From Planktotalea frisia (GTDB lineage Bacteria; Pseudomonadota; Alphaproteobacteria; Rhodobacterales; Rhodobacteraceae), in assembly GCF_001890925.1 (NCBI RefSeq), contig NZ_MLCB01000091.1, forward strand, positions 62,001-126,000: a stretch of 64,000 bases of DNA, written 5' to 3'. The notes beneath the pieces are model-generated. The model saw nothing but the letters and a program-made list of their open reading frames with translations, was not told the DNA's origin and ran no database searches. Below are positions 1 to 17,573 of this stretch, piece after piece (within the stretch, counting starts at the first letter, position 1; the number at the start of each line of letters is the position of its first letter). A program made the position numbers and the translations under genes.

Positions 1-716
1 GTACGGGCCATCTGTGCAACCGATGCGATCGCGTCCGGCACCTCGCTGCGCCGATCCCAGACGTGGCCCAGGAGCGCGATATAGTCTTCCTCGCTCAGCC
101 CAGCACGATGGGCTTTGGAAGCGGCGCGCTTTTTCATGCGCGCGTCGTCTAGCGACGCGATTGAAAAATCCGGGGACAGCTCAAAAGCGCGGTCCTGGAT
201 TGGCACGTCATAGGCCCGCATGGTCATAGACGTGTGGTCATTGAATGCCACGGAAGGTAATAGTGGCCCCGCAAGCGCCCATTCGATCACGTCCAAAGCC
301 TCGAACGCGAAGGTTTCCCACCGAAGCTGCACGCGGTTTTCCACGGTCAGCCGTGCGGCCAGATCGCGCATGGCTTGCATGAGTTCGCGGCCGCGTGCCA
401 CATCGCGCAGCCCCGGCTCCCATCCCAGCGTGATGGCGTGATAAGCGGTGGCTATCCCGTTGGTTGCAAGTTGGCGGTCAGTGTCGATGAGCGCTGTTTC
501 GGTTGGGAAGAAAACCCCTGGACGGGGCATCAGCTGGCGTTCGAACGCATCGCCATGTACGTCGATCAGGGCAGGGGCCAATATCAATCCACGTGCGTCG
601 ATCACCTCGCCTTGCGTGGGGCCACCTAATTCGACGATCTTGCCATTGCTGATGGCAACAGTCGTCTCAGTGATCTCGCCAGGCAGGTAGACCTGTGCGC
701 CTTCAAAGGTAATCAT
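1..716 (-). CDS. PhnM-like amidohydrolase (second copy, partial)
   Basis: This gene runs off the left edge, and about 238 N-terminal residues are visible from an ATG at 716. It starts MITFEGAQVYLPGE and has the amidohydrolase metal-site motif (LIDVHGD, near residue 48) followed by FERQLMPRPG. That order matches the LHTDNVERHIEPRP stretch of the classical PhnM at 3972-5114, so the two are paralogues, although this copy is quite divergent. PhnM hydrolyses ribose 1-phosphonate 5-triphosphate in the C-P lyase pathway; whether this copy does the same is unknown. It is the last visible gene of the transporter-methyltransferase operon, and its ATG directly follows the stop of the methyltransferase gene. 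The C-terminal half cannot be judged. Confidence 0.75.
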   Translation of the reverse strand, partial: MITFEGAQVYLPGEITETTVAISNGKIVELGGPTQGEVIDARGLILAPALIDVHGDAFERQLMPRPGVFFPTETALIDTDRQLATNGIATAYHAITLGWEPGLRDVARGRELMQAMRDLAARLTVENRVQLRWETFAFEALDVIEWALAGPLLPSVAFNDHTSMTMRAYDVPIQDRAFELSPDFSIASLDDARMKKRAASKAHRAGLSEEDYIALLGHVWDRRSEVPDAIASVAQMAR

Positions 717-1361
717 TCAAAGTCGCTCCATTGTCAGATGCCAGTGAAAAGTCCCCGGCTTTTCGTGTTCACGGTCCTCAAGCCTCAGGCATTCAAAGCC
801 CGAAAACAGGGCCAACAGATCGGCCGCCGCGCAATAGTAGTGCGGATGCATTTTGTCCGTACCGGGTGCATCAAAAACCCATGCGTTGCGGCTGATTTCA
901 CGACCTGTGTATTTCGCCTGCTCATGCGGCAGGCGGCGTTTGGACAGCATGGTGCCTATATAACTGCCGCCGGGCTTCAGTACGCGACGAATTTCGGCAA
1001 TGGTGCGCAGCAGGATGTCTTCATCGCCATGGTAGATCACGTTCCAGCTGAGCACGTGATCAAAGGCGTGATCCTTGAACGGCAGCGTATCCATGCGGGC
1101 CAGAATTGTTTCTACGCCACCGGCCCTTTCAATCTCTGCCAACCCGCCGGGCGCGGCATCCAAAGCGATCACGTCAAAGCCCTGGGCTGTCAGCCAAAGC
1201 GCGTGACGCCCCACGCCCGCCCCCAGATCAAGAATGCGTGCACTTTGTGCCAGACCAGCCGCCCATTCTTGCACGTCCTTCTCGGGCGTCAGCCACTTGC
1301 TATCTTTTTCGATGGATTTCCATTGGTCATTCCAATGCTGGTCTGCTGTATCCGATTTCAC
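717..1361 (-). CDS. Class I SAM-dependent methyltransferase
   Basis: A 214-residue protein with a Rossmann-type SAM fold. Motif I is ILDLGAGVGRHALWL near residue 43, the acidic ribose-binding residue follows in VIALDAA, and a Methyltransf_11-like FDHVLSWNVIYHG stretch comes after. It overlaps the upstream permease gene by 4 nt (ATGA) and abuts the PhnM-like gene downstream, so it is translated as part of this operon. The substrate is unknown. From context, a phosphonate-derived compound or an intermediate of its breakdown is possible, but the sequence does not show this. The family also includes many unrelated small-molecule methyltransferases. Confidence 0.8.
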   Translation of the reverse strand: MKSDTADQHWNDQWKSIEKDSKWLTPEKDVQEWAAGLAQSARILDLGAGVGRHALWLTAQGFDVIALDAAPGGLAEIERAGGVETILARMDTLPFKDHAFDHVLSWNVIYHGDEDILLRTIAEIRRVLKPGGSYIGTMLSKRRLPHEQAKYTGREISRNAWVFDAPGTDKMHPHYYCAAADLLALFSGFECLRLEDREHEKPGTFHWHLTMERL

Positions 1362-2191
1362 CGTTGTTCTCCGATAATTTTGGTGCGGGCCCAGCCGCTG
1401 ACGAGCTCGATCCCGATCACAACAACTGCGATCATCAAGATCACGGTCATCGCTGTGGGGTAGTCGAAAAGGTCAAAGCCAACTTTAAGCTCGATCCCGA
1501 TACCACCCGCACCGACAAGGCCAAGGATAGTCGACGACCGGACGGCTTTCTCCAAGGCAAAGAGAGAGGTGGAAATGAAAGCAGGCAGGCTGCCGGGGAT
1601 CGTGGCACAGGCCACAACATCGAGTTTCCGCGCACCAGTGGCTGTTAGGCTCTCGGCGGGGCCTTTGTCGGTTGCTTCCATGTCGTCGGCGAAAAAGCGT
1701 CCGCAAAAGCCGATTGTGTCGATCACGATTGCCAGCATGCCAGCAAAGGGACCAAGGCCCACGGCAACGACAAACACCAAAGCCCAGGCGATATCGGGGA
1801 CAGCACGGATGAAACTCAGCCCGGTGCGCATAATTTGGTTCACCCATGGGCCGGCAATCAGCCCCTTTGCCGCCAAGAGGGCGACAGGAACAGATATGAT
1901 TACCCCGATCACGGCACCGGCAACAGCGATTTGCAGTGTCTCGACCATTTTCCAGCCCAGCCGTGTGAGCACTTGTGGGTCAAGGTTCGGCGGGAAGGCC
2001 CGCGCGGCAAAATCGGCAAAGCGGGGTGGGGAGCTGGCTACTTTTTCAAGCGAGAAGCCGGCACCGGCGAGGCACCAGAAGATGATGACAAGTCCAAGCG
2101 CATAGCCCAAAAAACTGATGGCCGAGGGCCGCTCAAACCGCGCCAGTTCAAATCGGGCCCGTTCATTCCGGGGAGGCGCGGTATCAGTCAT
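1358..2191 (-). CDS. phnE: Phosphonate-type ABC transporter permease (PhnE family)
   Basis: A 277-residue inner-membrane permease of the PhnE/BPD_transp_1 type. Several hydrophobic segments are visible (residues ~28-50, ~90-115, ~135-160, ~215-270), and the coupling-helix region reads TATGARKLDVV, close to the STGA motif usual in PhnE. The C terminus ends in the helix GIELVSGWARTKIIG. It overlaps the ATPase gene upstream and the methyltransferase gene downstream, forming one operon with the binding protein. It should form the channel for a phosphonate, phosphite or related oxyanion. The exact substrate cannot be read from sequence. Confidence 0.88.
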   Translation of the reverse strand: MTDTAPPRNERARFELARFERPSAISFLGYALGLVIIFWCLAGAGFSLEKVASSPPRFADFAARAFPPNLDPQVLTRLGWKMVETLQIAVAGAVIGVIISVPVALLAAKGLIAGPWVNQIMRTGLSFIRAVPDIAWALVFVVAVGLGPFAGMLAIVIDTIGFCGRFFADDMEATDKGPAESLTATGARKLDVVACATIPGSLPAFISTSLFALEKAVRSSTILGLVGAGGIGIELKVGFDLFDYPTAMTVILMIAVVVIGIELVSGWARTKIIGEQR

Positions 2192-3002
2192 AAAGGCCTC
2201 TCAGATCGGCGGAACTCAGCGAGGCTGCTGTCGCATCAAGCTGAATGCGCCCCTGCGCAAGGCCAAGCACGCGGTCGCCGTATTTCAATGCATGTTCAAT
2301 GTTGTGCGACGTAAAGACGACTGTCACGTTTTCGTCGCGGACAAGCCGGAAGAACAGCTCCATCACGTCTTCGCCTGCACTTGGATCAAGTGACGCGCAA
2401 GGCTCATCCGCAAAGAGAACCTTGGGCGCGCTGACGATGGCGCGGGCAATGGCCACGCGTTGCGACTGCCCGCCCGACAGCCGATCCGCGCGCCGGTGCG
2501 CGAAATCAGCGAGGCCCACACGTTCCAACGCCTGCATGGCAGTTTCCCGAGAGGACTGGGGGGCGAGCGAATGGCTCCAATGACGTATGCCGGGATGCTT
2601 GCCTAGAAGACCGTGTAAGACATTCGAAAGCACAGACAGTCTGGGCACCAGATTGTGCTTCTGAGAGACCAGCCCGATCTGCGCGCGAATGTTGCGCATC
2701 TGGCGCCCGGTCGTTTCATCTGTCTGCTGTCCCAGCAAATGCACACTGCCACCTGAGGTTGGGATCAACCCCATCAGGCAGCGCAGCAGGGTCGATTTCC
2801 CCGTGCCGTTGGCACCAACAAGTGCTGTTGCCTCTCCGCGGGCGAGGCGGAAACTCACGTCGGAAAAGATGGGCGTTGTTCCAAAGGATTTGGAAACGGC
2901 GCGAGCCTCTATATCGACATGCGAAACCGGGGCGAAGGCCGCCCCGGTTTGTTCAGTCAGCACATCCGGTGCCGCCGGACGTCTCAGCAAAAGATCAGTC
3001 AC
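2184..3002 (-). CDS. phnC: Phosphonate-type ABC transporter ATP-binding protein
   Basis: ATPase of the transporter, about 272 residues when started at the GTG at 3002, which overlaps the end of the binding-protein gene (GTGACTGA). A longer open frame to 3200 exists, but it would lie inside the coding region of that gene. Motifs: Walker A GANGTGKST (glycine-asparagine instead of the usual GSSGSGKS), signature [15 protein letters not shown], Walker B VLFADEPCASLD, and the switch His in FTSHNIEHA. It energises uptake with the permease at 1358-2191 and the binding protein at 2995-3864. The first ~35 residues before the ABC domain are poorly conserved in character, so the start is the least certain part. 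Confidence 0.88.
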   Translation of the reverse strand: MTDLLLRRPAAPDVLTEQTGAAFAPVSHVDIEARAVSKSFGTTPIFSDVSFRLARGEATALVGANGTGKSTLLRCLMGLIPTSGGSVHLLGQQTDETTGRQMRNIRAQIGLVSQKHNLVPRLSVLSNVLHGLLGKHPGIRHWSHSLAPQSSRETAMQALERVGLADFAHRRADRLSGGQSQRVAIARAIVSAPKVLFADEPCASLDPSAGEDVMELFFRLVRDENVTVVFTSHNIEHALKYGDRVLGLAQGRIQLDATAASLSSADLRGLYD

Positions 3003-3864
3003 CGATGAAATTGTCGAACTGAGGGTATCCCGCATTCGAGTACATCGAACGGACGTAGTCATATGCGCTGTCTTCAATCGCAACGAGGTCCATGCCGACA
3101 TATTTGTCGTTTTCTTCGTGAGCTGTGATGCCCGCGATGATCTGGGTCTTGTTCTCGAGAATGGCATCACGCACGGCTGTCGCAGCTTCGGTTGGTACAT
3201 GCGTACCTACCATGATCATGTCGTTGGGCAGGTCGCCCGAGCGCGCGATCATCTTGAAGAAGCCGTAGGGCAATTCTGTTTCCTTGGCGCGGACATTCAG
3301 CCAGCTGCCGGCGTTGGAGCCGATGGCATCCACATCGCCGTTCTTCAGCGCCTCATGGGCGATGTTGCGCGAGGTGTGTGTTTTCTTGATGTCGTTGACT
3401 GGATCAACGCCGTGATCAGCGAGTACCTGCATGGGGCAAAGCATGTTCGAGGTCGAACCGATATCCCCAAAGGCGACCGACTTGCCGACCAGATCAGCAG
3501 GCACGTTGATGCCGCTGTCAGCGCGCACGATAATGGCACAGTGATAATCAGGGCGACCGAGGCCGATCAGCGGCGTGGCATTGGTCAGCTTGTTGATAAC
3601 CACATATTCTGCAGGTCCAGAGACTACAAAATCCACGGTCTCACCGCGCAGCGCCTCGGCTGCAGCCGTGCGCGAGTTTACTGCATAGAATTCGAATGTG
3701 TCGCCGGTGGCCACTTCAAGCGCCTCCTTAAACGGGCCCCATTCCAGTTGCAGGCGTTCCATGCCTTCAACATCTGTGACGGCAAGTTTCCAGGTTTCTG
3801 CTGTCGCTGCAAAGGCAGACACAGCGGCAAGGCTTACACCCAGCAAAAGAGATTTCAGTTTCAT
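2995..3864 (-). CDS. phnD: Phosphonate-type substrate-binding protein
   Basis: A 289-residue periplasmic binding protein. The N-terminal signal peptide MKLKSLLLGVSLAAVSAFA is followed by cleavage near AETWKLAV. The PhnD-family pattern is visible: an early VTDVEGMERL strand, then VDFVVSGPAEYVV, a GDIGSTSNMLCP loop (the usual place of the oxyanion-binding Ser/Thr helix), and DVDAIGSNAGSW. Its SD (GGAGG) is 5 nt before the ATG. A palindrome and a Pho-box-like triple repeat lie in the 107-bp leader. It is first in a transporter-methyltransferase-PhnM-like operon. It is clearly different from the PhnD at 22971-23882, so the two transporters probably favour different ligands. Confidence 0.87.
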   Translation of the reverse strand: MKLKSLLLGVSLAAVSAFAATAETWKLAVTDVEGMERLQLEWGPFKEALEVATGDTFEFYAVNSRTAAAEALRGETVDFVVSGPAEYVVINKLTNATPLIGLGRPDYHCAIIVRADSGINVPADLVGKSVAFGDIGSTSNMLCPMQVLADHGVDPVNDIKKTHTSRNIAHEALKNGDVDAIGSNAGSWLNVRAKETELPYGFFKMIARSGDLPNDMIMVGTHVPTEAATAVRDAILENKTQIIAGITAHEENDKYVGMDLVAIEDSAYDYVRSMYSNAGYPQFDNFIGD

Positions 3865-3918: not shown

Positions 3919-3947
3919 GCTACAGTTTCATGAAACCTTTGTGACGT
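3919..3947 (-). promoter_or_regulatory. Pho box (triple repeat) before phnD
   Basis: On the minus strand three 7-mers stand at exact 11-bp spacing: ACGTCAC, GTTTCAT and CTGTAGC, separated by 4-bp A/G-rich spacers. This fits the PhoB-binding pattern of CTGTCAT-like half-sites with 4-bp spacers. It ends 54 bp upstream of the phnD start. The individual half-sites are degenerate. Confidence 0.55.
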
Positions 3948-3971: not shown

Positions 3972-5114
3972 TCAACCAACTTTGTTGCCTTGGCTCCAAA
4001 CGCCGCGGAGCAGAGGCGTTTCGCCGATTTTGCGCACGCGCAGAACGTCACCGCGCAAACCTGTTTTCAAAGCACCACGGTCACGCAACCGCACGGCACT
4101 CGCGGGGTTGCTGGTCACTGTAGCAATGGCGCGGGGAAGGTCATTCCAAATATCTGCAAGGCGGAAGGCCGACAAAAGCAGTGCCGAGGGCACGTAGTCT
4201 GATGAGACAATGTCGAGAAGATCGGCCTTTGCAAGTTCCTCCGCTGCAACATTGCCAGAGTGGGATCCGCCGCGGATCAGGTTGGGTGCACCCATCATCA
4301 CGGCAATGCCGTGGATGCGACAGGTGGCTGCGGCTTCAACCGTTGTGGGAAACTCGGCAAAACCCACGCCGTTCACCGCAGAGGTTCCGACATGATCGGC
4401 CGTGGTATCATCATGGCTGGCCAGAACTGCACCCAGGCGGCGGGCCTCTTTCACTGCACCTGCCTCGTGTTTTGCCCCGAAGCGTTTTTGCAGACCCAAC
4501 AGGGTCTCAACATGTTCGGTAAACTCCGCGTCGTTCATCCCGCGTTTTTTAGCAACATAGGTTTTAAGCGCGGTCAGGTCACGGAACTGGCGCTGGCCCG
4601 GGGTGTGATCCATAAGGCTGACGATGCCGACCCGGTCTGACGAGCCGAACGCCGCCAATTCCTCAAGCAGCGTCTCTGAACAGATTTCGGCCCGCAGATG
4701 GAGGAAATGACTAATCTTGAAATACCCTTGTGCACGCGCTGCCAAGAGTTCATCCGCCAGCTTTCGGGCGTAGTCGATGTAGCGTCCCTTGCCGCTGTGG
4801 ATGGACCCCACCCGCATGGCGTCAAACACCGTCGTGATGCCTGTGGAGGCCAGTTCTGCATCGTGTGCGATCAGGGCGGGCAAATGTGGCCAGTCCACCT
4901 CCGGACGCGGTTCGATATGGCGTTCGACATTATCTGTATGCAGTTCGACAAGACCGGGAATAACGAGGTCACCGGCACAATCCACGGCACCGGTCGGGAC
5001 ATGATCCCCTTCAGTAATGTCACAAATAACGCCTTGTTCGATGGTCACCGCACCAGTGAGCACCTGATCTTCCAACACAAGCTGTGCATTGGCGAGACAT
5101 AGGTCGCTTGACAC
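3972..5114 (-). CDS. phnM: PhnM, ribose 1-methylphosphonate 5-triphosphate diphosphatase
   Basis: A metal-dependent amidohydrolase of the C-P lyase pathway. It removes pyrophosphate from 5-triphosphoribosyl 1-phosphonates to give the PhnJ substrate. About 380 residues with the GTG at 5114, which is the family length. Motifs: VIPGLVELHTDNVERHIEPRP (metal-binding H-x-D), STGITTVFDAM, LMDHTPGQRQFRD, ASHDDTTADHV and SSDYVPSALL. An in-frame ATG at 5165 would overlap the start of the divergent DUF1045 gene by 2 nt and add 17 residues of no obvious character, so the GTG is preferred. No strong SD is visible. phnM is separated from phnG-N by the convergently placed DUF1045 gene. Confidence 0.9.
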   Translation of the reverse strand: MSSDLCLANAQLVLEDQVLTGAVTIEQGVICDITEGDHVPTGAVDCAGDLVIPGLVELHTDNVERHIEPRPEVDWPHLPALIAHDAELASTGITTVFDAMRVGSIHSGKGRYIDYARKLADELLAARAQGYFKISHFLHLRAEICSETLLEELAAFGSSDRVGIVSLMDHTPGQRQFRDLTALKTYVAKKRGMNDAEFTEHVETLLGLQKRFGAKHEAGAVKEARRLGAVLASHDDTTADHVGTSAVNGVGFAEFPTTVEAAATCRIHGIAVMMGAPNLIRGGSHSGNVAAEELAKADLLDIVSSDYVPSALLLSAFRLADIWNDLPRAIATVTSNPASAVRLRDRGALKTGLRGDVLRVRKIGETPLLRGVWSQGNKVG

Positions 5115-5163
5115 ATGGTTGTCACAAGCCGTCGTTAACGAGGTCGTGGAAAAAGGGGAATTC

Positions 5164-5835
5164 ATGTCATACTCTCGATTTGCAATTTATTATGTGCCGT
5201 CAAAAGGGCCCTTGGCCGATTTTGGTGCGTCCTGGCTTGGTTGGGATGTTTTGCATGGCCGTGAGGCACCCCAGCCTAGTATGCCGGGTTTGGATGACAT
5301 CACGATGACACCGCGCAAATACGGGTTTCATGCGACATTGAAGCCGCCCTTTCGTCTGGCTGAAGGGCAAGACGTGAAAGCTTTGGAAGCCGCTGCATCT
5401 GACCTTGCTGCAGGCCTCGCGCCAGCCATATGCAACGAATTGGAATTGACGACTTTGGGCGGTTTTCTGGCGCTGACTCCGCAAGACGATATGCAAGCTG
5501 TGCGCCGGGTTGCTGGAGCCTGTGTGCGCGAGCTTGATCGATTTCGCGCCCCGGCTTCCGAGGCAGAACTCGCGCGTCGCCGCAAAGTTGGTCTGAGCCC
5601 ACCGCAAGAGGCGCTGCTCGCGCAATGGGGCTATCCTTACGTGATGGAGGAGTTTCGGTTCCACATGACACTGACGGCGCGGCTGCCGCAGGCTGACATC
5701 GCCGTATGGTCGGCCGCTGTGCGGCGTTATTTGCCGGACCTGTCTGGCCTTTTTGTCCTTGACCAGATCGCTTTGTGCGGTGAGCGGGAAGATGGCCGGT
5801 TCGAAGTAATCCATCGCTACAAACTCACCGGCTGA
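5164..5835 (+). CDS. DUF1045 phosphonate-operon protein (2H phosphoesterase-like)
   Basis: A 223-residue protein of the DUF1045 family, known from C-P lyase gene clusters. The start at 5164 follows an AAGGGG ribosome-binding site. Two histidine motifs are visible, YGFHATLKPPF (near residue 47) and FRFHMTLTARL (near residue 167). They have the spacing and form (HxTL twice) of the 2H phosphoesterase superfamily, in which the two His residues open 2',3'- or 1,2-cyclic phosphates. No phnP (cyclic ribose phosphodiesterase) is present in the window, so a PhnP-like step is a reasonable inference. The gene is divergent from phnM and its end overlaps the end of phnN by 19 nt on the other strand. Confidence 0.85.
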   Translation: MSYSRFAIYYVPSKGPLADFGASWLGWDVLHGREAPQPSMPGLDDITMTPRKYGFHATLKPPFRLAEGQDVKALEAAASDLAAGLAPAICNELELTTLGGFLALTPQDDMQAVRRVAGACVRELDRFRAPASEAELARRRKVGLSPPQEALLAQWGYPYVMEEFRFHMTLTARLPQADIAVWSAAVRRYLPDLSGLFVLDQIALCGEREDGRFEVIHRYKLTG

Positions 5836-6377
5836 AGCAGTGCCGCGCCCCGGGCGATGGTCTGGTACAGCGGACCATCATTGGCGAGGTTGATTACCTT
5901 GAGCCCAACCGGCAAGGGCTTGTCAGCCTGCGCAAGGCGTTTGCTGATCTCTTCTTCCGTCTCACGGGCCCGCGCGGCCAAACGGTGCGCAAGTGTTTCC
6001 GGTTTCGCGGTGATGTTGAGAACTATGAAGCGTGGAAAAATCTCGGCCGCTTGGGCCAGAGCCTTGCGAGAGAAATTGACAAGGCAATCGGTCCCCTTGC
6101 CAAGTTGGTATTTGACGTTAATCGGAATGCCGTAATACAGCCCGTGCGCGCGCCAATGTACTGCAAAAGCCCCATCTTCCACCATGGCTTCAAATTGTGC
6201 CACTGACACAGCATCGTAATTCTCTCCGCCCAAGTCAGGCGCTCGTGTGATGACGCGGCGCACCATATGCAAATCGGGTATTGCGTCGTGTAGGCCCGCC
6301 ATCACGCTGTCCTTGCCAACACCCGATGGGCCGACAACCGCGATGAGGCGTCCCCCAGACTTTGAGGCAAGCGTCAT
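5817..6377 (-). CDS. phnN: PhnN, ribose 1,5-bisphosphate phosphokinase
   Basis: A 186-residue kinase that phosphorylates ribose 1,5-bisphosphate to PRPP, the last step of phosphonate breakdown. The fold is guanylate-kinase-like: P-loop GPSGVGKDSV near residue 17, the RRVITRAPDLGGENYDAVS substrate region, and a lid ITAKPETLAHRLAARARET. It overlaps phnL by 4 nt (ATGA), which places it last in phnGHIJKLN. PhnN normally ends near this length, so the gene is complete even though its tail overlaps the convergent DUF1045 gene. Confidence 0.92.
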   Translation of the reverse strand: MTLASKSGGRLIAVVGPSGVGKDSVMAGLHDAIPDLHMVRRVITRAPDLGGENYDAVSVAQFEAMVEDGAFAVHWRAHGLYYGIPINVKYQLGKGTDCLVNFSRKALAQAAEIFPRFIVLNITAKPETLAHRLAARARETEEEISKRLAQADKPLPVGLKVINLANDGPLYQTIARGAALLQPVSL

Positions 6378-7057
6378 GCGGCCATTCCGGGCGTAAATCG
6401 ACCGACATCAATTTCGCGATCACAGACACGGGTACGGGCCGCCTCATCATGAAAAATGCCAATGATGGCCGCGCCGCGCGCTTTGGCGTCCTCGATCAAG
6501 GAGAGCACCACCTCGCGGTTCGCAGCGTCGAGGCTCGCGGTAGGTTCATCAAGTAACATTGCAGGGTAGGTATGGGCAAAGCCACGGGCAATGTTCACGC
6601 GCTGTTGCTCTCCGCCGGAGAAGGTAGTGGGGGACAAAGACCACAGTCGTTCTGGGATGTTTAGTTGGGTCAGAAGCGCCGATGCGCGGTCCTGCGCTTC
6701 GTCTGCCGGTACGCCCAAAGCGCGCAGAGGCTCTGCAACCACATCGAGCGTTGGGACTCGCGGCACCACACGCAGGAACTGGCTAACATAGCCCAGCACA
6801 TCACGGCGCAATTTTATGATGTCGCGCGGCTCAGACCGCACGATGTCCAAACCGCCAATGCGAATTTCACCTGCCTGCGTCAGGTAATTGCCGTAGATCA
6901 TCCGCATTAGCGTGGATTTACCAGCACCAGAGGCCCCAGTGAGCGCCACGCATTCGCCAGGGGCAACCGCGAAGGACACATCGCTGATCACCTCGATCAC
7001 GGCACTTCCCTGATTGTGCAGGGTAAAGGTTTTGGAGACGTCTTTGAGTTCAATCAT
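6374..7057 (-). CDS. phnL: PhnL, C-P lyase ABC-type subunit
   Basis: A 227-residue ABC-family ATPase belonging to the C-P lyase machinery, not to a transporter. Walker A is [12 protein letters not shown] near residue 40, the signature is FSGGEQQRVNIARGF and Walker B is AMLLDEPTASLD. E. coli PhnL is of the same length. In the pathway PhnL acts with PhnG, H and I in forming the ribosyl phosphonate and binds to the PhnK-bearing core complex. It starts 3 nt after the phnK stop. Confidence 0.92.
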   Translation of the reverse strand: MIELKDVSKTFTLHNQGSAVIEVISDVSFAVAPGECVALTGASGAGKSTLMRMIYGNYLTQAGEIRIGGLDIVRSEPRDIIKLRRDVLGYVSQFLRVVPRVPTLDVVAEPLRALGVPADEAQDRASALLTQLNIPERLWSLSPTTFSGGEQQRVNIARGFAHTYPAMLLDEPTASLDAANREVVLSLIEDAKARGAAIIGIFHDEAARTRVCDREIDVGRFTPGMAA

Positions 7058-7060
7058 GGC

Positions 7061-7831
7061 TCATACCTGTAAAACAGAACTGACAAGAAGCTGGCTATAG
7101 GCATGCTGCGGATCGTCCAGCACCTGATCTGTCAGGCCCGCCTCGACCACGCGGCCTGATTTCATGACCATCAGGCGGTCCGCCAGCAGGCGAACAACAG
7201 CCAGGTCATGGGTTACAATGATCGCCGATAGACCCATGTCACGCACCAGACCGCGCAGCAGATCCAGCAGTCGCGCCTGAACCGACACATCTAGACCGCC
7301 GGTGGGTTCATCCATGAACACAAGACGTGGGCCCGTGACAAGGTTGCGTGCTATTTGCAAGCGTTGCTGCATCCCACCAGAGAATGTTGTAGGGCGATCA
7401 TCCACACGTGACGCATCGATCTCGACCCGCCCCAGCCAGTCCGTGGCCTTTTCGCGGATATCGCCGTAGTGACGATCTCCCACAGCCATCAACCGCTCGC
7501 CTACATTGCCACCGGCGCTGACGCCCATGCGTAGCCCGTCGCGGGCGTGTTGGTGTACAAAAGCCCAATCGGTGCGACCGAGCATCCTGCGTTCGGGTTC
7601 GGACATCGTAATTGTATCGCGTGGACCGTCGGTACGGGTGTCGAACACAACCTGTCCCGCATCGGGGGTCAGATGCCCTGCCATGCAATTGAGCAAGGTG
7701 GATTTGCCTGATCCGCTTTCGCCAACGATCCCCACAACCTCACCGGGATACAGGTCGAAAGACACATCGGCGCAACCGATATGCGCACCATATCGCTTGG
7801 TGATGCCCTGAACAGAAAGCAAAGGTGTCAT
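7061..7831 (-). CDS. phnK: PhnK, C-P lyase ABC-type subunit
   Basis: About 256 residues from the ATG at 7831, which overlaps the phnJ stop by 4 nt; a longer frame to 7876 would run into phnJ. Walker A is GESGSGKSTLLN, the signature is FSGGMQQRLQIARNL and Walker B is LVFMDEPTGGLD. It resembles the peptide-transporter (DppF/OppF) type of ATPase, as PhnK does. PhnK docks on PhnJ of the core complex, and ATP hydrolysis is required for phosphonate breakdown in vivo. The order J-K-L-N is the common one. Confidence 0.92.
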   Translation of the reverse strand: MTPLLSVQGITKRYGAHIGCADVSFDLYPGEVVGIVGESGSGKSTLLNCMAGHLTPDAGQVVFDTRTDGPRDTITMSEPERRMLGRTDWAFVHQHARDGLRMGVSAGGNVGERLMAVGDRHYGDIREKATDWLGRVEIDASRVDDRPTTFSGGMQQRLQIARNLVTGPRLVFMDEPTGGLDVSVQARLLDLLRGLVRDMGLSAIIVTHDLAVVRLLADRLMVMKSGRVVEAGLTDQVLDDPQHAYSQLLVSSVLQV

Positions 7832-8679
7832 GCTGCGTCCTTTCCTTTGTGGCCCGTTGCCTGGCGCGCTTCGCAATAATCGGTGTCAGAGCAGACAAAC
7901 ATCCGCCCACCGGCGTCATCGATGATCAACTCATCCAGATAGCTGTCTGTCGCACCGCACATCCCGCAGGGGTGATCAGCCTTGGACGCCTCAAACGGAT
8001 GATCCTCAAAGTCGAGGCTGACCACTTGGGTATATGGGGGCAGCGCATAAATACGTTGCTCGCGGCCTGCGCCAAAAAGCTGGATTGCGGCCATATCACC
8101 CAGCTTGGGATTATCGAATTTGGGGATCGGCGAGGGATCCATCACATAGCGCCCCTCGACCTTGACCGGATAGGCGTAAGAGGTGGCGATATGACCGTGG
8201 CGGCTGATATCTTCATAAAGTTTCACATGCATCAGTCCATATTCTTCAAGGCTGTGCATCTTACGTGTCTCGCTTTCACGGGGTTCAAGAAAACGCAGCG
8301 GTTCGGGGATCGGCACCTGATAGACAAGGATCTGACCCTCGTGCAGCGGCTCTTCGGGGATGCGGTGCCGGGTCTGGATCACAGTGGCATCACTTGTCGC
8401 AGTGGTCGTCGCAACTCCAGCAGTGCGTTGAAAGAAAGTCCGTATTGAAACTGCGTTTGTGGTGTCATCGGCCCCTTGGTCGATCACCTTGAACGTGTCC
8501 TTGGGCGTCAGCACCGCAGCTGACACCTGCACGCCGCCTGTTCCCCAGCCATAGGGCATCGGCATCTCGCGAGAGGCGAAAGGGACCTGATAGCCGGGAA
8601 TGGCAAGCCCCTTAAGGATTGCACGGCGGATCATCCGTTTTGTTTGCTCGTCCAAATAGGCGAAGTTATACTCGGTCAT
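7828..8679 (-). CDS. phnJ: PhnJ, carbon-phosphorus lyase (radical SAM)
   Basis: A 283-residue catalytic subunit that cleaves the C-P bond of ribosyl 1-phosphonate 5-phosphate to an alkane and cyclic ribose phosphate. The diagnostic cysteine cluster is visible near residue 243: CGMC, then about 21 residues later FVCSDTDYC. These four Cys bind the 4Fe-4S cluster and supply the thiyl radical in PhnJ. The N terminus (YNFAYLDEQTKRMIRRAILK) and PMPYGWGTGGVQ also match the family. It overlaps phnI and phnK by 4 nt each. All key residues are present, so the enzyme should be active. Confidence 0.95.
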   Translation of the reverse strand: MTEYNFAYLDEQTKRMIRRAILKGLAIPGYQVPFASREMPMPYGWGTGGVQVSAAVLTPKDTFKVIDQGADDTTNAVSIRTFFQRTAGVATTTATSDATVIQTRHRIPEEPLHEGQILVYQVPIPEPLRFLEPRESETRKMHSLEEYGLMHVKLYEDISRHGHIATSYAYPVKVEGRYVMDPSPIPKFDNPKLGDMAAIQLFGAGREQRIYALPPYTQVVSLDFEDHPFEASKADHPCGMCGATDSYLDELIIDDAGGRMFVCSDTDYCEARQATGHKGKDAA

Positions 8680-9764
8680 TCCGCTGCCTCCTGCACCTGT
8701 AGCGCACCCGCTTCGCGACGGAGCTTGCGCACCAGTTCCAATTCAGACTGAAAATCGACGTAATGGGGCAGTTTGATATGTTCTAGGAACCCCGTCGCCT
8801 GAATGTTGTCGGCGTGATACAAAACGAATTCTGCGTCCTGGGCGGGTGCACCAACGTTATCCTCGCCCAATTCTTCCCAGCGTAGCGCGCGATCGACCAA
8901 GGCCATAGAGATCGCCTTGCGCTCGGTCTGGCCAAAGACCAGCCCGTACCCGCGGGTAAACTGTGGCGGCTTGGTTTTCGAGCCGGTGAATTGGTTGACG
9001 GTTTCGCATTCGGTCAAGATCACTTCTCCGATCTCGACGGCAAATCCCAGTTCGGGGATGTCCATCTCAACCGGAACTGACCCGATCCGCAGCTCGCCCA
9101 CAAAGGCATGGTTGCGCCCGTAGCCGCGCTGCGTGGAGTAGGCGAGGCCAAGGGTAAAACCTTCGTCCGCGCGGGTCAGCGCTTGCAGGCGCAGGGCGCG
9201 GTCGGCGGGCATTTCCAGTGGTTCGCGGGTCAGGTCGGGGGGCGGCGTATCGTCATGGGGGGCCTCTTCGATCAGCCCTTCGCGGTTCAGGAATTCGGTG
9301 ACATGCGGGACAGTGCCCGTCTCGGCGTCACGTGATGGAGCCTTGGGCACCTCGCCATCAGCGGCCAGTTTGAAATCAAGCAAACGGTGCGTGTAGTCAA
9401 ATGTTGGGCCCAGGACCTGCCCGCCGGGCAAGTCCTTGAACGTGGCCGAGATGCGTCGATCGCAGGCCATAATGCCGGTATCGACAGGCTCGGACGCACC
9501 AAAGCGCGGCAGAGTGGTGCGATAGGCGCGAATGAGGAAGATCGCTTCGATCAGATCGCCACGCGCCTGCTTGATTGCAAGTGCCGCAAGGTCCGGATCA
9601 TAAAGCGACCCTTCGGCCATGACGCGATTGACGGCAAGACTTAGTTGCTCGCGGATTTGCGCAATGCTGAGCTCCGCGATATCCGTGTTACCGCGGCGTT
9701 CTTCGGCGAGCCAGGCATGGGCATTCTCGATTGCCCGCTCTCCGCCTTTGACTGCTACATACAT
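8676..9764 (-). CDS. phnI: PhnI, nucleosidase subunit of the C-P lyase core
   Basis: A 362-residue protein of usual PhnI length. With PhnG, H and L it displaces adenine from ATP with a phosphonate. The N terminus MYVAVKGGERAIENAHAW is characteristic, as are LAYSTQRGYGRNHAFVGELR and HADNIQATGFLEHIKLPHY. It starts 1 nt after the phnH stop and overlaps phnJ by 4 nt, in keeping with the stoichiometric (PhnGHIJ)2 core complex. Confidence 0.93.
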   Translation of the reverse strand: MYVAVKGGERAIENAHAWLAEERRGNTDIAELSIAQIREQLSLAVNRVMAEGSLYDPDLAALAIKQARGDLIEAIFLIRAYRTTLPRFGASEPVDTGIMACDRRISATFKDLPGGQVLGPTFDYTHRLLDFKLAADGEVPKAPSRDAETGTVPHVTEFLNREGLIEEAPHDDTPPPDLTREPLEMPADRALRLQALTRADEGFTLGLAYSTQRGYGRNHAFVGELRIGSVPVEMDIPELGFAVEIGEVILTECETVNQFTGSKTKPPQFTRGYGLVFGQTERKAISMALVDRALRWEELGEDNVGAPAQDAEFVLYHADNIQATGFLEHIKLPHYVDFQSELELVRKLRREAGALQVQEAAE

Positions 9765-9765
9765 G

Positions 9766-10365
9766 TCAGGATGCTCCTACTTGCGCTATCGCTTCGCTAC
9801 TTGAGCGCGAGACTTCGGTTGACCGGGGCAAAGCCGCGAGGCGTTCGCCACAAGTGAAAATGAAATCCAGCCCCAGCGGGAACTGGGTTCGGTTGGCCTG
9901 AAACGCTTCCACTTCTGGCAAGGAAAGCGTTGCCTGATCCTTGATGCCGGGACCCGTCAAAGTTGCGCCTGCCGCAAGTTCGGAACATTCAACTATGAGC
10001 GTGGCCGAGCGGTCAGGGTACTCGGACGTGCCGATCGGGTAGACCGCGAGCGGCGCGAGCGCGTCCCACTTGCCAACCGCAAACATACACTGCGCGGGGC
10101 CAACAAAAGGGGCACCAGTGTGAAAGGCCAGCCACGCCCGCGCCGCTTCGCAATCCATATCGCCAGCCAGATAAATCGGTGTTTCCGTATCGCAGAGCGT
10201 CAGCAGAACGGCGCCCATCGCGGGCGACAGCGGGGCAGGGGGTGCTGCCCCTTCGATATCCTGAATGGTGCCCGGACGCGCCATGGCCTCCATCACACTG
10301 CGAAAGGCGTGGGCTGACTGGGTGGCTGGATCGGCAAAGCCGCCGGACAGGGTGTTTGCCTGCAT
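9766..10365 (-). CDS. phnH: PhnH, C-P lyase core subunit
   Basis: A 199-residue subunit of the PhnGHIJ complex, with no enzymatic activity of its own known. The family N terminus is recognisable (GGFADPATQSAHAFRSVMEAMARPG), as are CDTETPIYL and PIGTSEYPDRSATLIVECS. It shares one base with the phnG stop (TGATG) and is followed 1 nt later by phnI. The length and region order are normal for PhnH. Confidence 0.92.
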   Translation of the reverse strand: MQANTLSGGFADPATQSAHAFRSVMEAMARPGTIQDIEGAAPPAPLSPAMGAVLLTLCDTETPIYLAGDMDCEAARAWLAFHTGAPFVGPAQCMFAVGKWDALAPLAVYPIGTSEYPDRSATLIVECSELAAGATLTGPGIKDQATLSLPEVEAFQANRTQFPLGLDFIFTCGERLAALPRSTEVSRSSSEAIAQVGAS

Positions 10366-10820
10366 CAGTCTTCTCCTCGGGTCATGGTAAAGAAATCAAC
10401 CTTTGTCGCGGCTGCCTTGGCCGCGCGGGCGGCTTTCATGGTGGCCATCCCTGCTTCCAGAGGCTCAAGGACCGTCTCGCGCAGCCTACTTGCCATTGCG
10501 GTCTGCATAAGCGCATCGACTAGAGCGGCGACCTCGGCATCTGCTTTGCTACGCCCTTGAATATAGCTGTGCCCGACTTCGCCGGTTTCCAACGTCAAAG
10601 CGCAGCGGGTTATCGTCATCTCGCCCAGATTGAAGGGTGCGCCGGTGGCACCAGCACGTGCGCGGACCATCGTGCTGCCAATCTCTGGTGCACGCAGCCA
10701 CGTAAAAGCAGGGCGCGATATTTCAGCATCCAACAGTGCGGCCACACGGCCTTCGGGCGCTTTAGCCAGCAGACCCATCCACGCCTTGCGGGGATTATTT
10801 TCGCTCACAGTGTCTTTCAT
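10365..10820 (-). CDS. phnG: PhnG, C-P lyase core subunit
   Basis: A 151-residue protein from the ATG at 10820; 12 more codons upstream are open but fall in the promoter. The family pattern is seen in RKAWMGLLAKA, FTWLRAPEIGSTMVRARAGATGAPFNLGEM and GHSYIQGRSKADAEVAALVDAL. It is the first gene of phnGHIJKLN. Upstream are a tandem CTATACA repeat and a possible Pho box, suggesting dual control by PhnF and PhoB. Confidence 0.92.
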   Translation of the reverse strand: MKDTVSENNPRKAWMGLLAKAPEGRVAALLDAEISRPAFTWLRAPEIGSTMVRARAGATGAPFNLGEMTITRCALTLETGEVGHSYIQGRSKADAEVAALVDALMQTAMASRLRETVLEPLEAGMATMKAARAAKAAATKVDFFTMTRGED

Positions 10821-10840
10821 CTCGACAACTTGTCTCTTTC

Positions 10841-10856
10841 CTATACAACTATACAT
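10841..10856 (-). promoter_or_regulatory. Tandem TGTATAG-type repeat, candidate PhnF operator
   Basis: The plus strand carries ctatacaa directly followed by ctatacat (minus strand ATGTATAGTTGTATAG), 21 bp upstream of phnG. The GTATAG core resembles the HutC-subfamily PhnF operator reported in mycobacteria (as I recall, TGGTATAGACCA). The location between phnG and phnF fits PhnF control, but it is a direct repeat rather than a clean palindrome. Confidence 0.35.
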
Positions 10857-11679: not shown

Positions 11680-12150
11680 CTACAGGTAGATACGGAACCT
11701 CGGGGTCAAACTATGCCTTTGTTCAAAGCCGCAGGCCAAGTATACGGCTTGGGCGTTTGCGTTGTCGGGATGTGTTCCGACCGTCATAGATGCGCAATAG
11801 AGCTCGCGTGCTTTGGCTATCGATGCATTGATCAACCGCCTTCCAATGCCTGATCCTCGAAACTCGGCTTCAACAAACAAGTGGTGCATATCAATGCCAC
11901 GCTCACCCACCTCCAATTTTATCATTGGGCAGAGAGCAGCATAGCCTACAGCTATTCCATCAACTTCGGCAACCAGCGCATAAATCCAAGGAGTTTCTCC
12001 AAAGATATCACGCTCCAGGGACTTTGTGCTAACGTTTGGAATATCCCCGTGATGATGGGCCAGTGCCTGCACCATAGATAAAATTTGTTCCACATCGGAT
12101 CGGGCAGCGCTTCGCGTGACAATAGCATTGGGATCAACTGAGTTCTTCAT
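11680..12150 (-). CDS. GNAT-family N-acetyltransferase
   Basis: A 156-residue acetyltransferase from the ATG at 12150. The acetyl-CoA loop is visible as VEAEFRGSGIGRRLI near residue 95, followed by the ASMTVGTHPDNANAQAVYLACGFEQ C-terminal segment typical of the fold. It lies convergent to phnF. The phosphonate setting suggests comparison with PhnO (aminoalkylphosphonate acetyltransferase), but GNAT substrates cannot be read from such motifs and it is not in the phn operon. Substrate unknown. Confidence 0.75.
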   Translation of the reverse strand: MKNSVDPNAIVTRSAARSDVEQILSMVQALAHHHGDIPNVSTKSLERDIFGETPWIYALVAEVDGIAVGYAALCPMIKLEVGERGIDMHHLFVEAEFRGSGIGRRLINASIAKARELYCASMTVGTHPDNANAQAVYLACGFEQRHSLTPRFRIYL

Positions 12151-12216
12151 TTCACGTTCCGGATCGGTTTGCAGGGGAAGGCGCATGACGCTGACTATGG
12201 AAGTCGAATGAAATGC

Positions 12217-12249
12217 AAAAAGTACCCCCACCCAACAGGACGGGGGCAC
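12217..12249 (-). terminator. Rho-independent terminator of the glycerophosphodiesterase gene
   Basis: On the minus strand GTGCCCCC pairs with GGGGGTAC (8 bp with one G-T wobble) around a 12-nt loop, followed at once by five T residues. It lies about 40 nt after the stop of the gene at 12288-13505. Confidence 0.7.
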
Positions 12250-12287
12250 CAGCGCTGTGTTATACAACTAGCGAACGGGCAATCAGC

Positions 12288-13505
12288 CTATTCAAGCCCC
12301 ATGCAGTTTGCGTAGTAGGTTACCGTTGCAGGCCAATCGGAGAATATACCGACAACGCCCACATCCTGCGCCAAGGCGTCGATGTATTCGTACATGACAC
12401 CATCGTTGGTGGTCAGATCCGAGATCGACTGGTAGTACCATCCGCCACCGTCTTTGAGCGGGCCAGACCGCTCGATCGTCCATGTGATGATCTCAAGCCC
12501 TGCTGCTTTGGCTTGAACAGCCAGCTCGGACGGGATGATTTCGCCGTCCGCAGATGTGGCCACCAACATCCATGTTGGAGGTGCGATATAGTTTACACCC
12601 ATCGATTTCAGCTCTTCCATCGTGTTCGGCCATGTGGCCGCATCCATCGGGGAATAGCCTTCGATGTTGTATTCATCCATCAGATAAACCGCTTGCGCGC
12701 CAAACTCCGGCTCTGCTTCGATCCAGTAGAGCACGTCTTCGAGGTTGAAGGACTGAAGCCAGACATCAGAGGCTGGAATATCGGCTGCCTTGTATTCATC
12801 CACCAGTTTTTGCGCATAGTCGGCTTGGGTAAATCCGTTGAACGGCATTTCGACCGAAGGTGATTTAAGCTCTGGCGTGAACTTTGCGCCCAGAGATTTG
12901 AACAACGCGATGGACTCGGCATGGGTCATCAGCGTTGCGGGCTCGGCCGAATAGAGATCCGTGCGCCAACCTGCTGTGCCGTCCAAATAAGCTTCAGCGG
13001 TGGTCGCAGTCGCATCAGCCGCATCCATTTTCGGGGTGAGTGTCCGGTACTCTGCCAGTGTAATTTCGGACGTGCGGCATTCGGCAGCGGCAGGCGTTTC
13101 CCTATTCGCAGGCGTGAAGGGCTGTGCGCAAGTGCTCGCCAGAGGGCTGGTTACAATGTTTGTGGTGGTGTGCAGATCATTTTGTGCATGACGGCAGACC
13201 AGCTCAAGGTCTTTCGTAAAGGTGACATCGCATTCGAGTATGCCCGCACCCATCCGCGCCGCGGCCACATTGGATTCGACAGTATGCTCGGGGAACTGCA
13301 TGGGTGCGCCCCGATGCCCGATCGAGAACAGCGATGTTTTTCCTTCCTGACCCATGCACTGGGTGAGCTTGTCTTTGAGCGGACCCGCTTCCATCTGATC
13401 GATAAGGTAGTAAGGGCGCGGACCATATTCCACGTTTTCGACAGTTTGCGCCCAAGCTGGCAGAGCAGTAAAAAAAGTAGAAACGATAGCAGCGGTAACT
13501 CGCAT
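12288..13505 (-). CDS. Periplasmic glycerophosphodiester phosphodiesterase
   Basis: A 405-residue GDPD-family enzyme that should release glycerol 3-phosphate from glycerophosphodiesters outside the cytoplasm. The start at 13505 is chosen because GGAGAAG lies just before it. Signal peptide [19 protein letters not shown]. The catalytic barrel begins near residue 60 with [17 protein letters not shown] (HRG and Glu), then [18 protein letters not shown]. Later motifs are [13 protein letters not shown] (the E-x-K strand) and [12 protein letters not shown]. It has a long insertion between the first His-bearing strand and the Glu-Lys strand. A 29-bp Pho-type repeat lies upstream and a terminator downstream, so it is a single Pho-regulated gene. 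Confidence 0.88.
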
Positions 13506-13551
13506 TTTCTTCTCCATCATAATGTAATTGCTTGCTTATGCGGGGCCAATC

Positions 13552-14417: not shown

Positions 14418-14435
14418 GCGTCACAAAAACTTCAC
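14418..14435 (+). promoter_or_regulatory. Candidate Pho box before the ars operon
   Basis: GCGTCAC, spacer AAAA, then ACTTCAC at 11-bp spacing, about 36 bp upstream of the ArsR-ArsC start. It matches roughly 11 of 18 consensus positions, which is weaker than the other boxes in this window. Confidence 0.3.
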
Positions 14436-14447
14436 TTTTCATGATGC

Positions 14448-14473
14448 CATAATTCACATATTCATGAATTATG
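14448..14473 (+). promoter_or_regulatory. ArsR-type operator overlapping the arsR start
   Basis: A perfect 8-bp inverted repeat, CATAATTC and GAATTATG, around a 10-bp centre. The right arm contains the ATG at 14471. The dyad size and position fit autoregulation by the ArsR domain encoded directly downstream. Confidence 0.6.
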
Positions 14474-15319
14474 GAAAAATTGATTCCCGATCGCCTTTCG
14501 ACCCTCGGTCATCCGCAACGGCTGGCGCTGTTTCGGCTGCTGATGCGACGCTACCCCGACCGTGTGCCAGCGACGGAACTGGCGCAGGCACTGGGGTTAA
14601 AGCCCAATACATTGTCCACCTATGTCAATGCATTGATGCAGGCAGGGTTGATCAGTCAAGAGCGGGTTGGCACATCCCTGCGCTATGCCATCGACATGGA
14701 CGCCGCGCGCGAGACTGTTGACTACCTCCTCCACGACTGTTGTCGGGGAAGGCCCGAAATTTGCATTCCATCTGTCAATTCTGATGCACCAGGAGACTTT
14801 CGCATGACTGACAAAAAATATAATATCCTCTTCATCTGCACCGGCAATTCTGCCCGTTCCATATTCGCGGAATCCATATTGCGCGATATTGCCGGTGACC
14901 GCTTCGTTGCATATTCAGCGGGGACCAAACCGCGCTCGGAATTAAATCCCTTTGCTTTGGAGGTGCTGGAGCAAAAGGGGCACGACATCTCTGTCCTCCG
15001 GTCCAAGAATATATCCGAATTCACAGAAGCAGACGCGCCAGCCCTCGATTTTGTCTTTACGGTCTGCAATCAGGCCGCGAACGAAGAATGCCCCGCGTGG
15101 TCAGGGCAGTCTATCAGCGCCCATTGGGGGATGCCTGATCCCGTCAGCGTTGTTGGGTCGGATGCTGAAAAAAGCCTTGCCTTTCATCAGACCTATGGCG
15201 CGCTGCGCAACCGGCTGATCGCATTTACTTCCCTGCCGCTCGCGTCCTTGGATCGCATGTCCTTGCAAAAGGCCGTCGACGAGATCGGCCAAACATACGA
15301 AGAAAGAATACTCAAATGA
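14471..15319 (+). CDS. ArsR repressor fused to ArsC arsenate reductase
   Basis: A 282-residue two-domain protein. Residues 1-90 form an ArsR/SmtB winged helix ([53 protein letters not shown]). From about residue 115 it is a low-molecular-weight phosphatase-type arsenate reductase with the P-loop [13 protein letters not shown] (C-x5-R) and later DPVSVVG carrying the acid Asp. It would sense arsenite and also reduce arsenate. Candidate arsenite-binding thiols are the [10 protein letters not shown] cysteines at the linker. No SD precedes the ATG, which sits inside the operator. It overlaps the GAPDH gene by 4 nt. Confidence 0.88.
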
Positions 15320-16314
15320 CTGTTTACGCACTCAACGGCCTTGGTCGCATTGGCAAGCTTGCCCTTAGACCCCTACTAGAGCGCGGTGCCCAGATCGCAT
15401 GGATCAACGACGGGGTGGGTGACCCTGAAATGCACGCCCACTTGTTTGAGTTCGATACGGTTCATGGCCGTTGGCAGGCAGATTTTTCCCATGATTCAGA
15501 CAGTGTGACAATTGACGGGGCGAAGATACCCTTCATCGGGACCCGCAACATTGCCGATCTACCGTTGGAAGGCGTCGATGTGGTAATCGACTGCACTGGC
15601 GCGTTCAAAACAGAGGCCAAACTCGCCCCCTATTTTGAAGCAGGCGTGAAGAAAGTGGTTGTGTCGGCACCTGTCAAAGACGGAGATGCGGCCAATATTG
15701 TGATCGGCGTCAATGATCACATCTACGCGCCAGACCGCCACCGCATTGTGACCGCCGCTAGCTGCACCACCAATTGTCTGGCCCCTGTGGTCAAGGTCAT
15801 CCACGAAAATCTGGGCATTAAACATGGCTCCATCACAACTATCCATGACGTGACCAATACACAAACCATTGTGGACCGTCCTGCCAAAGACCTGCGCCGC
15901 GCGCGCTCGGCGCTGAATTCGCTTATCCCTACAACCACGGGCAGTGCCACGGCAATCACGCTCATCTACCCGGAGCTTAAGGGCCGTTTGAACGGCCATG
16001 CTGTGCGCGTGCCGCTGCTGAACGCCTCCCTGACGGATTGTGTTTTTGAGGTGGAGCAGGAGACGACGGCGGAAGAGGTGAATGCGCTGTTCAAAGCTGC
16101 CGCCGCGGGACCTCTTGAAGGGATTTTGGGCTTCGAGACCCGTCCGCTTGTCTCAACCGATTATACCAATGACGAACGCTCCAGCATCATAGATGCGCCT
16201 TCCACGATGGTGATCAATGGCACGCAGGTGAAGGTCTATGCGTGGTATGACAACGAGATGGGCTATGCACACCGATTGGTCGATGTCGCCTTCATGGTTG
16301 GTGAAAGCTTGTGA
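15316..16314 (+). CDS. ArsJ-associated glyceraldehyde-3-phosphate dehydrogenase
   Basis: A 332-residue GAPDH with NAD-binding start [18 protein letters not shown], active-site [11 protein letters not shown] (Cys-Thr-Thr-Asn-Cys) near residue 150, and [13 protein letters not shown] at the end. In ars operons this enzyme uses arsenate in place of phosphate to make 1-arseno-3-phosphoglycerate, which ArsJ exports; that is established for the GAPDH-ArsJ pair. The ATGA overlaps on both sides show tight coupling with the ArsR-ArsC gene and arsJ. It is very unlikely to be the only glycolytic GAPDH of the cell. Confidence 0.9.
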
Positions 16315-17573
16315 CACAAACGGCTGCGCGTCCCGAGGGCCTGTCTGCATATATCGCGGTGACTGCGGCCTATTGGGCCTTTATGCTGACCGATGGTGCG
16401 TTGCGGATGCTGGTTTTGCTGCACTTTCACACGCTGGGTTTTTCACCGGTGCAATTGGCCTATCTGTTCGTGCTGTATGAAATCGCGGGCGTTGTGACGA
16501 ACCTCTGCGCGGGTTGGATCGCCGCCCGGTTCGGTCTGACCTCGACGCTTTATGCGGGGTTGGGCCTGCAAGTGCTGGCCCTGCTGGTGCTGTCGCAGCT
16601 TGACCCAAGCTGGGCGGTCGGGGCGTCTGTGGTCTTTGTCATGCTGGTGCAAGGGGCGAGTGGCGTCGCCAAAGACCTTGCCAAGATGTCGTCGAAATCG
16701 GCGGCCAAACTGCTTGCCCCGACCGAGGGTGGGGGCCTGTTTCGATGGGTTGCCCTGTTGACCGGATCCAAGAATATGGTGAAGGGCGCGGGCTTTTTGC
16801 TCGGCGCGGTGCTGCTTGCGACGGCGGGGTTTGTCTGGGCCGTGCTCGGGATGGCTGCGATCCTTGCTGTGATCCTGTTGGCCATTTTGGTGGCCATGCC
16901 TGCGGGACTGCCAAAAGGGCGCAAAGGGGCGAAATTCGCGGAAGTATTCTCAAAATCGGCAAATGTGAACTGGCTGAGTGCCGCGCGGGTGTTTCTGTTT
17001 GGTGCGCGGGACGTTTGGTTTGTGGTCGGCATCCCTATCTACTTCTACGCAGTGCTGTCGGATGGCACGACGACAGGCAACCGTACTGCGTTTTTCATGA
17101 TCGGTACATTCATGGCGGGGTGGGTCATCCTCTATGGCCTCGTTCAGGCCAATGCACCGCGCATACTGCGTGCAAAGGACCGCCCTGCCGCAGATTTGAT
17201 CGCTGCGGCCCGCAACTGGGGTTGGGGGCTTGTGGCGGTACCGATGGGTCTTACCCTTGCGGCCTTCGTTGCAGGGGAACCACAGACATGGCTGACCGTT
17301 ACCCTCGTGGCAGGATTGTTGGCCTTTGGCGCAGTTTTTGCGGTGAACTCATCGCTGCATTCCTATCTGATCCTGTCCTTTACCAAGGCCGAGCGCGTGA
17401 CGATGGATGTCGGTTTTTACTACATGGCCAATGCCGCCGGACGGTTGGCGGGTACGCTGTTGTCAGGGCTGACCTATCAGGCGGGCGGCTTGCCCATCAT
17501 GCTTGGGACGGCGACAGTCATGGTTGCGACCTCTGCCATTGCCGTGGGTTTTCTGAAGCCGGCGATTAAATAA
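16311..17573 (+). CDS. arsJ: ArsJ, organoarsenical efflux MFS permease
   Basis: A 420-residue major facilitator protein with about 12 hydrophobic segments. The start (GTG at 16311) overlaps the GAPDH stop. The N-terminal helix reads [32 protein letters not shown], and the segment [23 protein letters not shown] is typical of ArsJ. It exports 1-arseno-3-phosphoglycerate, which breaks down to arsenate outside. Together with the two upstream genes it forms a complete arsenate-resistance unit that needs no arsenite pump. Confidence 0.9.

Follow-up and report, generated by a model that had tools for sequence, protein, structure and literature searches.

For many marine bacteria, carbon-phosphorus (C-P) lyase determines the way in which phosphorus is gained from phosphonates and methane is released. 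In the described pathway, PhnI together with PhnG, PhnH, and PhnL ribosylates the phosphonate, PhnM (alpha-D-ribose 1-methylphosphonate 5-triphosphate diphosphatase) splits off pyrophosphate, and the C-P bond is then broken by PhnJ (PMC9947105, PMC10574752). An optional enzyme, PhnO, N-acetylates aminoalkylphosphonates and makes them usable by C-P lyase (PMC10574752). The importers PhnCDE and PtxABC/HtxBCDE serve for phosphonate, phosphite, and hypophosphite. Roles have been assigned to residues of the binding pocket, including a capping Tyr that is required for phosphite binding and an STS-H motif (PMC5700983). A literature search for the cassette treated here found only the phosphonate island fGIphn-A of HIMB59, in which phnDCE and C-P lyase genes are combined with a methyltransferase that is listed without a role (PMC10734472). 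We analyzed 64,000 nucleotides of the Planktotalea frisia genome (contig NZ_MLCB01000091.1; G000:C91:62001-126000), termed the window, in which positions 1-3864 of the minus strand carry a cassette in the order PhnD2-PhnC2-PhnE2-methyltransferase-PhnM2, that is, an importer followed by a methyltransferase and a PhnM paralogue.

The cassette is a new variant of known phosphonate-utilization machinery. We interpret it, with moderate confidence, as a horizontally mobile accessory module for phosphonate uptake and processing that feeds C-P lyase, is probably induced by phosphate starvation, and is not an independent route. Such a module probably widens the range of carbon-phosphorus compounds usable by the cell.

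Linkage to C-P lyase and spread of the cassette

Genes were identified from open reading frames (ORFs) together with Pfam and NCBIfam profile scores (Table 1). All five cassette genes were confirmed, with junctions formed by GTGA/ATGA overlaps or by a TGA directly before an ATG, bearing out an earlier note on this DNA that had described a PhnD-C-E set joined by overlaps to a methyltransferase and a PhnM-like gene. The classical phnM and the canonical phnCDEE that it had placed elsewhere in the window were likewise present. The GTG start of PhnC2 at 3002 was inferred, the longest ORF beginning at 3200. PhnM2 is cut by the left edge of the window; inspection of the contig sequence past that edge, as the note had advised, completed the gene (G000:C91:61511-62716, 401 amino acids) and revealed that the locus does not end there, being extended by an ArsK-like major facilitator superfamily (MFS) gene and then, after 41 bp, by a xylose-isomerase-like TIM-barrel gene. 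What did not hold was the description of the cassette as a second locus. PhnD2 starts 107 bp downstream of the classical phnM, on the same strand as phnG-H-I-J-K-L-N, and because of this spacing and orientation the cassette is better regarded as an extension of the C-P lyase operon than as a free-standing locus.

The linkage to C-P lyase was also seen among 299 genomes of the host's family, one per genus, in which PhnJ was present in 153, the methyltransferase in 23, and PhnM2 in 35. PhnJ accompanied the methyltransferase in 22 of its 23 genomes and PhnM2 in 34 of its 35 (Fisher p = 2e-6 and 3e-10, respectively, values that serve only as a guide, the genomes being related). In the lone exception (G163), phnK, phnL, phnN, and phnM lie on a short contig that breaks off at the expected position of phnJ, and the missing phnJ is an assembly gap in the phn operon. 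Among fetched loci, PhnJ was found in 43/47 genomes with the cassette or part of it and in 30/31 of the remaining PhnM2 genomes, the five without it being metagenome-assembled or single-cell genomes; C-P lyase genes lay no more than 10 kb away in 20 of the 32 loci with full flanks. From the distinct substrate route that the earlier note had proposed, we thus retain a dedicated importer with its own pocket and enzymes that travel with it, but not separateness from C-P lyase, since genomes with the cassette or PhnM2 nearly always have that system as well.

Relatives of PhnM2 were sought by scanning one genome per species, which returned 80, mostly from Rhodobacterales, and their neighborhoods, the analysis of which the note had also called for, were compared by tblastn of 23 neighborhood proteins and a codon-score gene caller. 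The order PhnD2-PhnC2-PhnE2-methyltransferase-PhnM2, with the MFS and TIM-barrel genes optional, recurred in about 40 other records, which places it far beyond chance. The methyltransferase was absent from some cassettes (L025, L027, L030, L043, L053, and L061) and the MFS gene from many, and PhnM2 was also found by itself or accompanied by just the TIM-barrel gene. The mobilizable plasmid pSMR1-5 of Pseudosulfitobacter pseudonitzschiae (L088 15868-27941, NZ_CP022420.1) carries the cassette between IS5-family genes, with a PhnM2 that is 98% identical, and on account of this near-identical copy and its setting we consider the cassette mobile. The plasmid copy adjoins phnC-D-E, an NAD(P)-dependent oxidoreductase gene, and a LysR gene, which together resemble a ptxABCDE operon of the phosphite-using type; the binding protein encoded there has a Tyr at the capping position.

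The arrangement also reached a second alphaproteobacterial family, in which G513 and G721 carry PhnM2, then PhnD2-C2-E2-methyltransferase and phnF, with phnG-H-I-J-K-L adjacent. In G589, a genome of 1.4 Mb, PhnD2-C2-E2-methyltransferase stands ahead of phnG-H-I-J-K-L-M (L099), which is the layout of the HIMB59 island and, unlike the full cassette, includes no PhnM2, MFS, or TIM-barrel gene. Even in distant families, the methyltransferase keeps its place next to PhnE2. The Haematobacter plasmid pOT1-5 carries PhnD2-C2-E2 genes (42-47% identity) in divergent orientation to a PhnM2 relative (43%, HGDGFERQ), and this region adjoins a C-P lyase-type cluster.

The importer pocket, PhnM2, and associated proteins

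The importer shares with PhnCDE and PtxABC/HtxBCDE a binding protein, ATPase, and permease of the same families and the Ser-Thr-Ser plus Tyr anchor, but has a single PhnE and an altered pocket in PhnD2. PhnD2 scored 85 bits against the PhnD equivalog model TIGR03431 (cut-off 261), and its nearest solved relative was PtxB (E = 1.5e-14). Its pocket was compared with those of the E. coli PhnD, the canonical PhnD from a divergent cluster (see below), and the PtxB-like protein of pSMR1-5. The Ser-Thr-Ser and Tyr residues that hold the oxyanion are retained, while Arg or Gln replaces the first Tyr, Glu86 is invariant, Asp or Glu occupies position 106, the STS-H His has become Asn167 (once Ser across the relatives), and the place of the capping Tyr of phosphite binders is taken by Asp215, which is invariant. 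PhnD2 thus differs from both phosphite binders and E. coli PhnD, and, having neither the capping Tyr nor the STS-H motif by which PtxB is recognized, is predicted by that criterion not to be specific for phosphite. From its additional acidic residues, its ligand may carry a polar or positively charged group. Most relatives conserve Cys109 and Cys143, which are lost in distant members; an AioX-like arsenite binder, considered because of Cys109, was dropped given the distant relatives without this cysteine.

PhnM2 passed the subfamily model NF011987 (361 bits, cut-off 253) and fell short of the PhnM equivalog TIGR02318 (287.6 bits, cut-off 390.55), and a sequence search of the PDB with PhnM2 gave no match. 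A maximum-likelihood tree of 44 PhnM-family proteins resolved classical PhnM, the PhnM of divergent clusters, PhnM2, and PhnM3, with support of 95/68 for the PhnM2 group and 100/99 for the other three, and the motifs HTDN.E.H, HGDMIE.E, HGDAFERQ (PhnM2), and HGD(A/G)FERH tracked these groups with a few variants. PhnM2 therefore belongs to the same family as PhnM and, like it, is found with C-P lyase, but it forms a separate clade, has HGDAFERQ instead of HTDN.E.H, and usually stands beside classical PhnM, seldom in its place; 46 of the 47 PhnM2 genomes tested also hold a PhnM above the TIGR02318 cut-off. In the complete genomes G513 and G660, both with a high-scoring PhnJ match of the four-cysteine family, the HGDAFERQ protein was the only PhnM-family match detected. 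Since no other PhnM was detected beside the C-P lyase of these two genomes, PhnM2 is probably capable of the PhnM reaction, and we infer that it is a PhnM isoform rather than an enzyme of different chemistry. It may thus even be an ordinary PhnM that acts on the same substrate, an outcome that the earlier note had named as refuting its proposal. The host genome also encodes a third PhnM-family protein (L083 8920-10149, G000:C143), with the motif HGDGFERH and 37% identity to PhnM2, which has no phosphonate genes around it and relatives that sit near phnF in other genomes.

The methyltransferase has the invariant motifs DTA, NV.YH, and HPH and an invariant Cys177. Its AlphaFold model (predicted local distance difference test score 92.5) matched only general S-adenosylmethionine (SAM) methyltransferases in Foldseek, and it scored 48 bits against the TehB model (cut-off 218) and 26 bits against an ArsM-type model (cut-off 240). 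The MFS protein was nearest to ArsK, being about 35% identical to annotated ArsK, and reached 288 bits against the ArsK model NF033733, below its cut-off of 400. In the TIM-barrel protein, nine residues are invariant (H65, H106, E152, D179, H182, H210, D219, H221, and E250). The ligands of the endonuclease IV zinc site come in the order H-H-E-D-H-H-D-H-E, which these residues follow, yet the closest folds are epimerase-like.

A Pho-box-like site lies 65 bp upstream of PhnD2, and similar sites precede many orthologues. When scored with a matrix built from five sites upstream of phnG, 21 of the 42 orthologous PhnD2 upstream regions reached p <= 0.01 against shuffles; a simple scan for the CTGTCAT Pho box was weak, the phnG-site matrix doing better. 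Based on these motifs, the cassette is probably induced by phosphate starvation.

A proposed role weighed against its rivals

In the reading that we favor, PhnD2-C2-E2 would import a phosphonate or close organophosphorus analogue distinct from the substrates of PtxABC or canonical PhnCDE. C-P lyase (PhnI with PhnG, PhnH, and PhnL) would couple this compound to ribose, PhnM2 would take pyrophosphate off the resulting ribosyl-phosphonate triphosphate, and PhnJ would then cleave the C-P bond. The methyltransferase would most likely modify the imported compound such that it becomes processable, or processable without harm, by analogy to acetylation by PhnO; the likeness is one of function only, PhnO being an acetyltransferase, not a methyltransferase, with no homology to it. 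Where present, the MFS protein may export unused product, and the TIM-barrel protein may be a metal enzyme that processes a product. More specifically, and only tentatively, we propose that the methyltransferase might cap the imported phosphonate (or P(III) oxyanion) with a methyl group from SAM, as an activating or detoxifying step, before C-P lyase and PhnM2 cleave the product. If an accessory module of this kind is indeed at work, phosphonate substrate range would be set by exchangeable parts, namely, importer, methyltransferase, and PhnM isoform, and the cassette would allow a direct test of the reason for which two PhnM types persist in many genomes and of the role of a methyltransferase in phosphonate breakdown.

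Several observations weigh against the favored reading. Some cassettes have no C-P lyase genes inside 10 kb, many genomes carry PhnM2 alone, without the importer, and the methyltransferase is not needed in every host, since several cassettes are without it. For regulation, only 14% of the PhnD2 upstream sites score above the 99th percentile for the starts of other genes.

The cassettes without a methyltransferase would also fit a redundant duplicate, in which the simple phosphonates served by the classical genes are also those served by PhnD2-C2-E2 and PhnM2, with the methyltransferase as a passenger of no related function, as would the detection of no PhnM besides PhnM2 in G513 and G660 and its tie to C-P lyase (PhnJ in 34/35 PhnM2 genera). 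We consider this duplicate unlikely, however, given that PhnD2 pocket residues differ at conserved positions, that the methyltransferase remains with PhnE2 over such distances, and that nearly all PhnM2 genomes tested keep the classical PhnM as well. The nearly strict co-occurrence with phnJ makes it quite improbable that C-P lyase is bypassed and an imported organophosphorus compound is handled by the methyltransferase and PhnM2, the idea advanced in the earlier note, even though PhnM2 is a clade to itself, altered around its metal-site motif, and the cassette moves as a unit, some copies lying far from C-P lyase genes.

Two further schemes appear very unlikely. The HIMB59 island has been discussed with its phnDCE as a phosphite importer (PMC10734472), and both the relatedness of PhnD2 to PtxB and the position of a methyltransferase between importer and C-P lyase genes would suit a route in which phosphite is imported, converted by the methyltransferase to methylphosphonate, and cleaved by C-P lyase. 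Yet the capping Tyr needed for phosphite (PMC5700983) is an invariant Asp in PhnD2 and the STS-H His is Asn, the pSMR1-5 cassette adjoins a separate ptx-like operon, and spending SAM on phosphite would be costly. An organoarsenical module, in which an arsenic compound would be imported, methylated, and exported, leaves the C-P lyase linkage unexplained. Its appeal lies in the proximity of the MFS protein to ArsK, the membership of AioX and ArrX in the PhnD2 superfamily, the two Cys residues conserved in most PhnD2 relatives, and two ars clusters, one in the window at a distance of about 10 kb and one beside another PhnM2 locus (L052), but the MFS protein falls below the ArsK cut-off and is missing from many cassettes, the cysteines are lost in distant PhnD2 members, and the methyltransferase scores poorly against the ArsM model.

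Other features of the window and divergent C-P lyase clusters

Table 1. Cassette genes and related phosphonate features, in window positions
Feature	Position	Strand	Basis or remark
PhnM2, N-terminal part	1..716	-	First 238 of 401 residues; HGDAFERQ-type PhnM paralogue
Class I SAM-dependent methyltransferase, GTG start	717..1361	-	PF13649 and PF08241
PhnE2 permease	1358..2191	-	TIGR01097, 263 bits, passes cut-off of 216.7
PhnC2 ATP-binding protein	2184..~3002	-	TIGR02315, 241 bits, below cut-off of 266; junction sequence
PhnD2 periplasmic binding protein	2995..3864	-	PF12974 (Phosphonate-bd), 135.7 bits
Pho-box-like site ACGTCACAAAGGTTTCAT	3930..3947	-	Matrix from phnG upstream sites, 14.9 bits
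Classical phnM, directly upstream of cassette	3972..5165	-	TIGR02318, 430 bits, passes cut-off
C-P lyase genes phnN-L-K-J-I-H-G	5817..10856	-	PhnN by NCBIfam score, PhnJ by matches; phnL, K, I, H, and G named from similarity among loci and by reading
Canonical phnC-D-E-E	~20701-24771		

Many cassettes adjoin a divergent phnF-G-H-I-J-K-L-M-C-D-E-E cluster (L012, L031, L037, and others), with a PhnJ 46-49% identical to that of the window. Four cysteines form the putative iron-sulfur site of PhnJ (E. coli 241, 244, 266, and 272; PMC9947105). The window PhnJ retains all of them, and the host genome has no PhnJ other than this four-cysteine form, while three of the four were lost in 17/17 divergent-cluster PhnJ sequences versus 0/12 classical ones, the rest of the sequence being kept. 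Two PhnJ matches were found in 12 of the 23 methyltransferase genomes of the 299-genome sample versus 6 of the 276 others. The same loss occurred in PhnJ of the Thermus thermophilus plasmid pVV8 and of Haematobacter pOT1-5 (L111 8974-9855 on pVV8; L112 14001-14915). Clusters with a cysteine-poor PhnJ are found in Rhodobacterales, Thermus plasmids, and, by similarity only, rhizobial plasmids. No description of a cysteine-poor PhnJ was found in the open-access literature, an absence that proves little, most subscription papers being outside the scope of the search. The divergent clusters are otherwise complete and annotated as ordinary C-P lyase; judged by the residues lost, they are presumably unable to act in the manner of the known radical C-P lyase.

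Near the phnG end of the operon are a glycerophosphodiester phosphodiesterase-family gene and a GNAT acetyltransferase gene (12288-13520 and 11680-12267, respectively; minus strand), the latter a possible phnO analogue. Genes for an ArsR-ArsC fusion, a GAPDH-like protein, and an ArsJ-like MFS protein follow at 14418-17573 on the plus strand, with a Pho-box-like site of 17 bits at 14418 that would tie arsenate handling to phosphate starvation. Further to the left of the cassette (L001 6854-10711), genes resembling a relaxase and a VirD4-type coupling protein, named by eye, are in line with a mobile element just beyond it.

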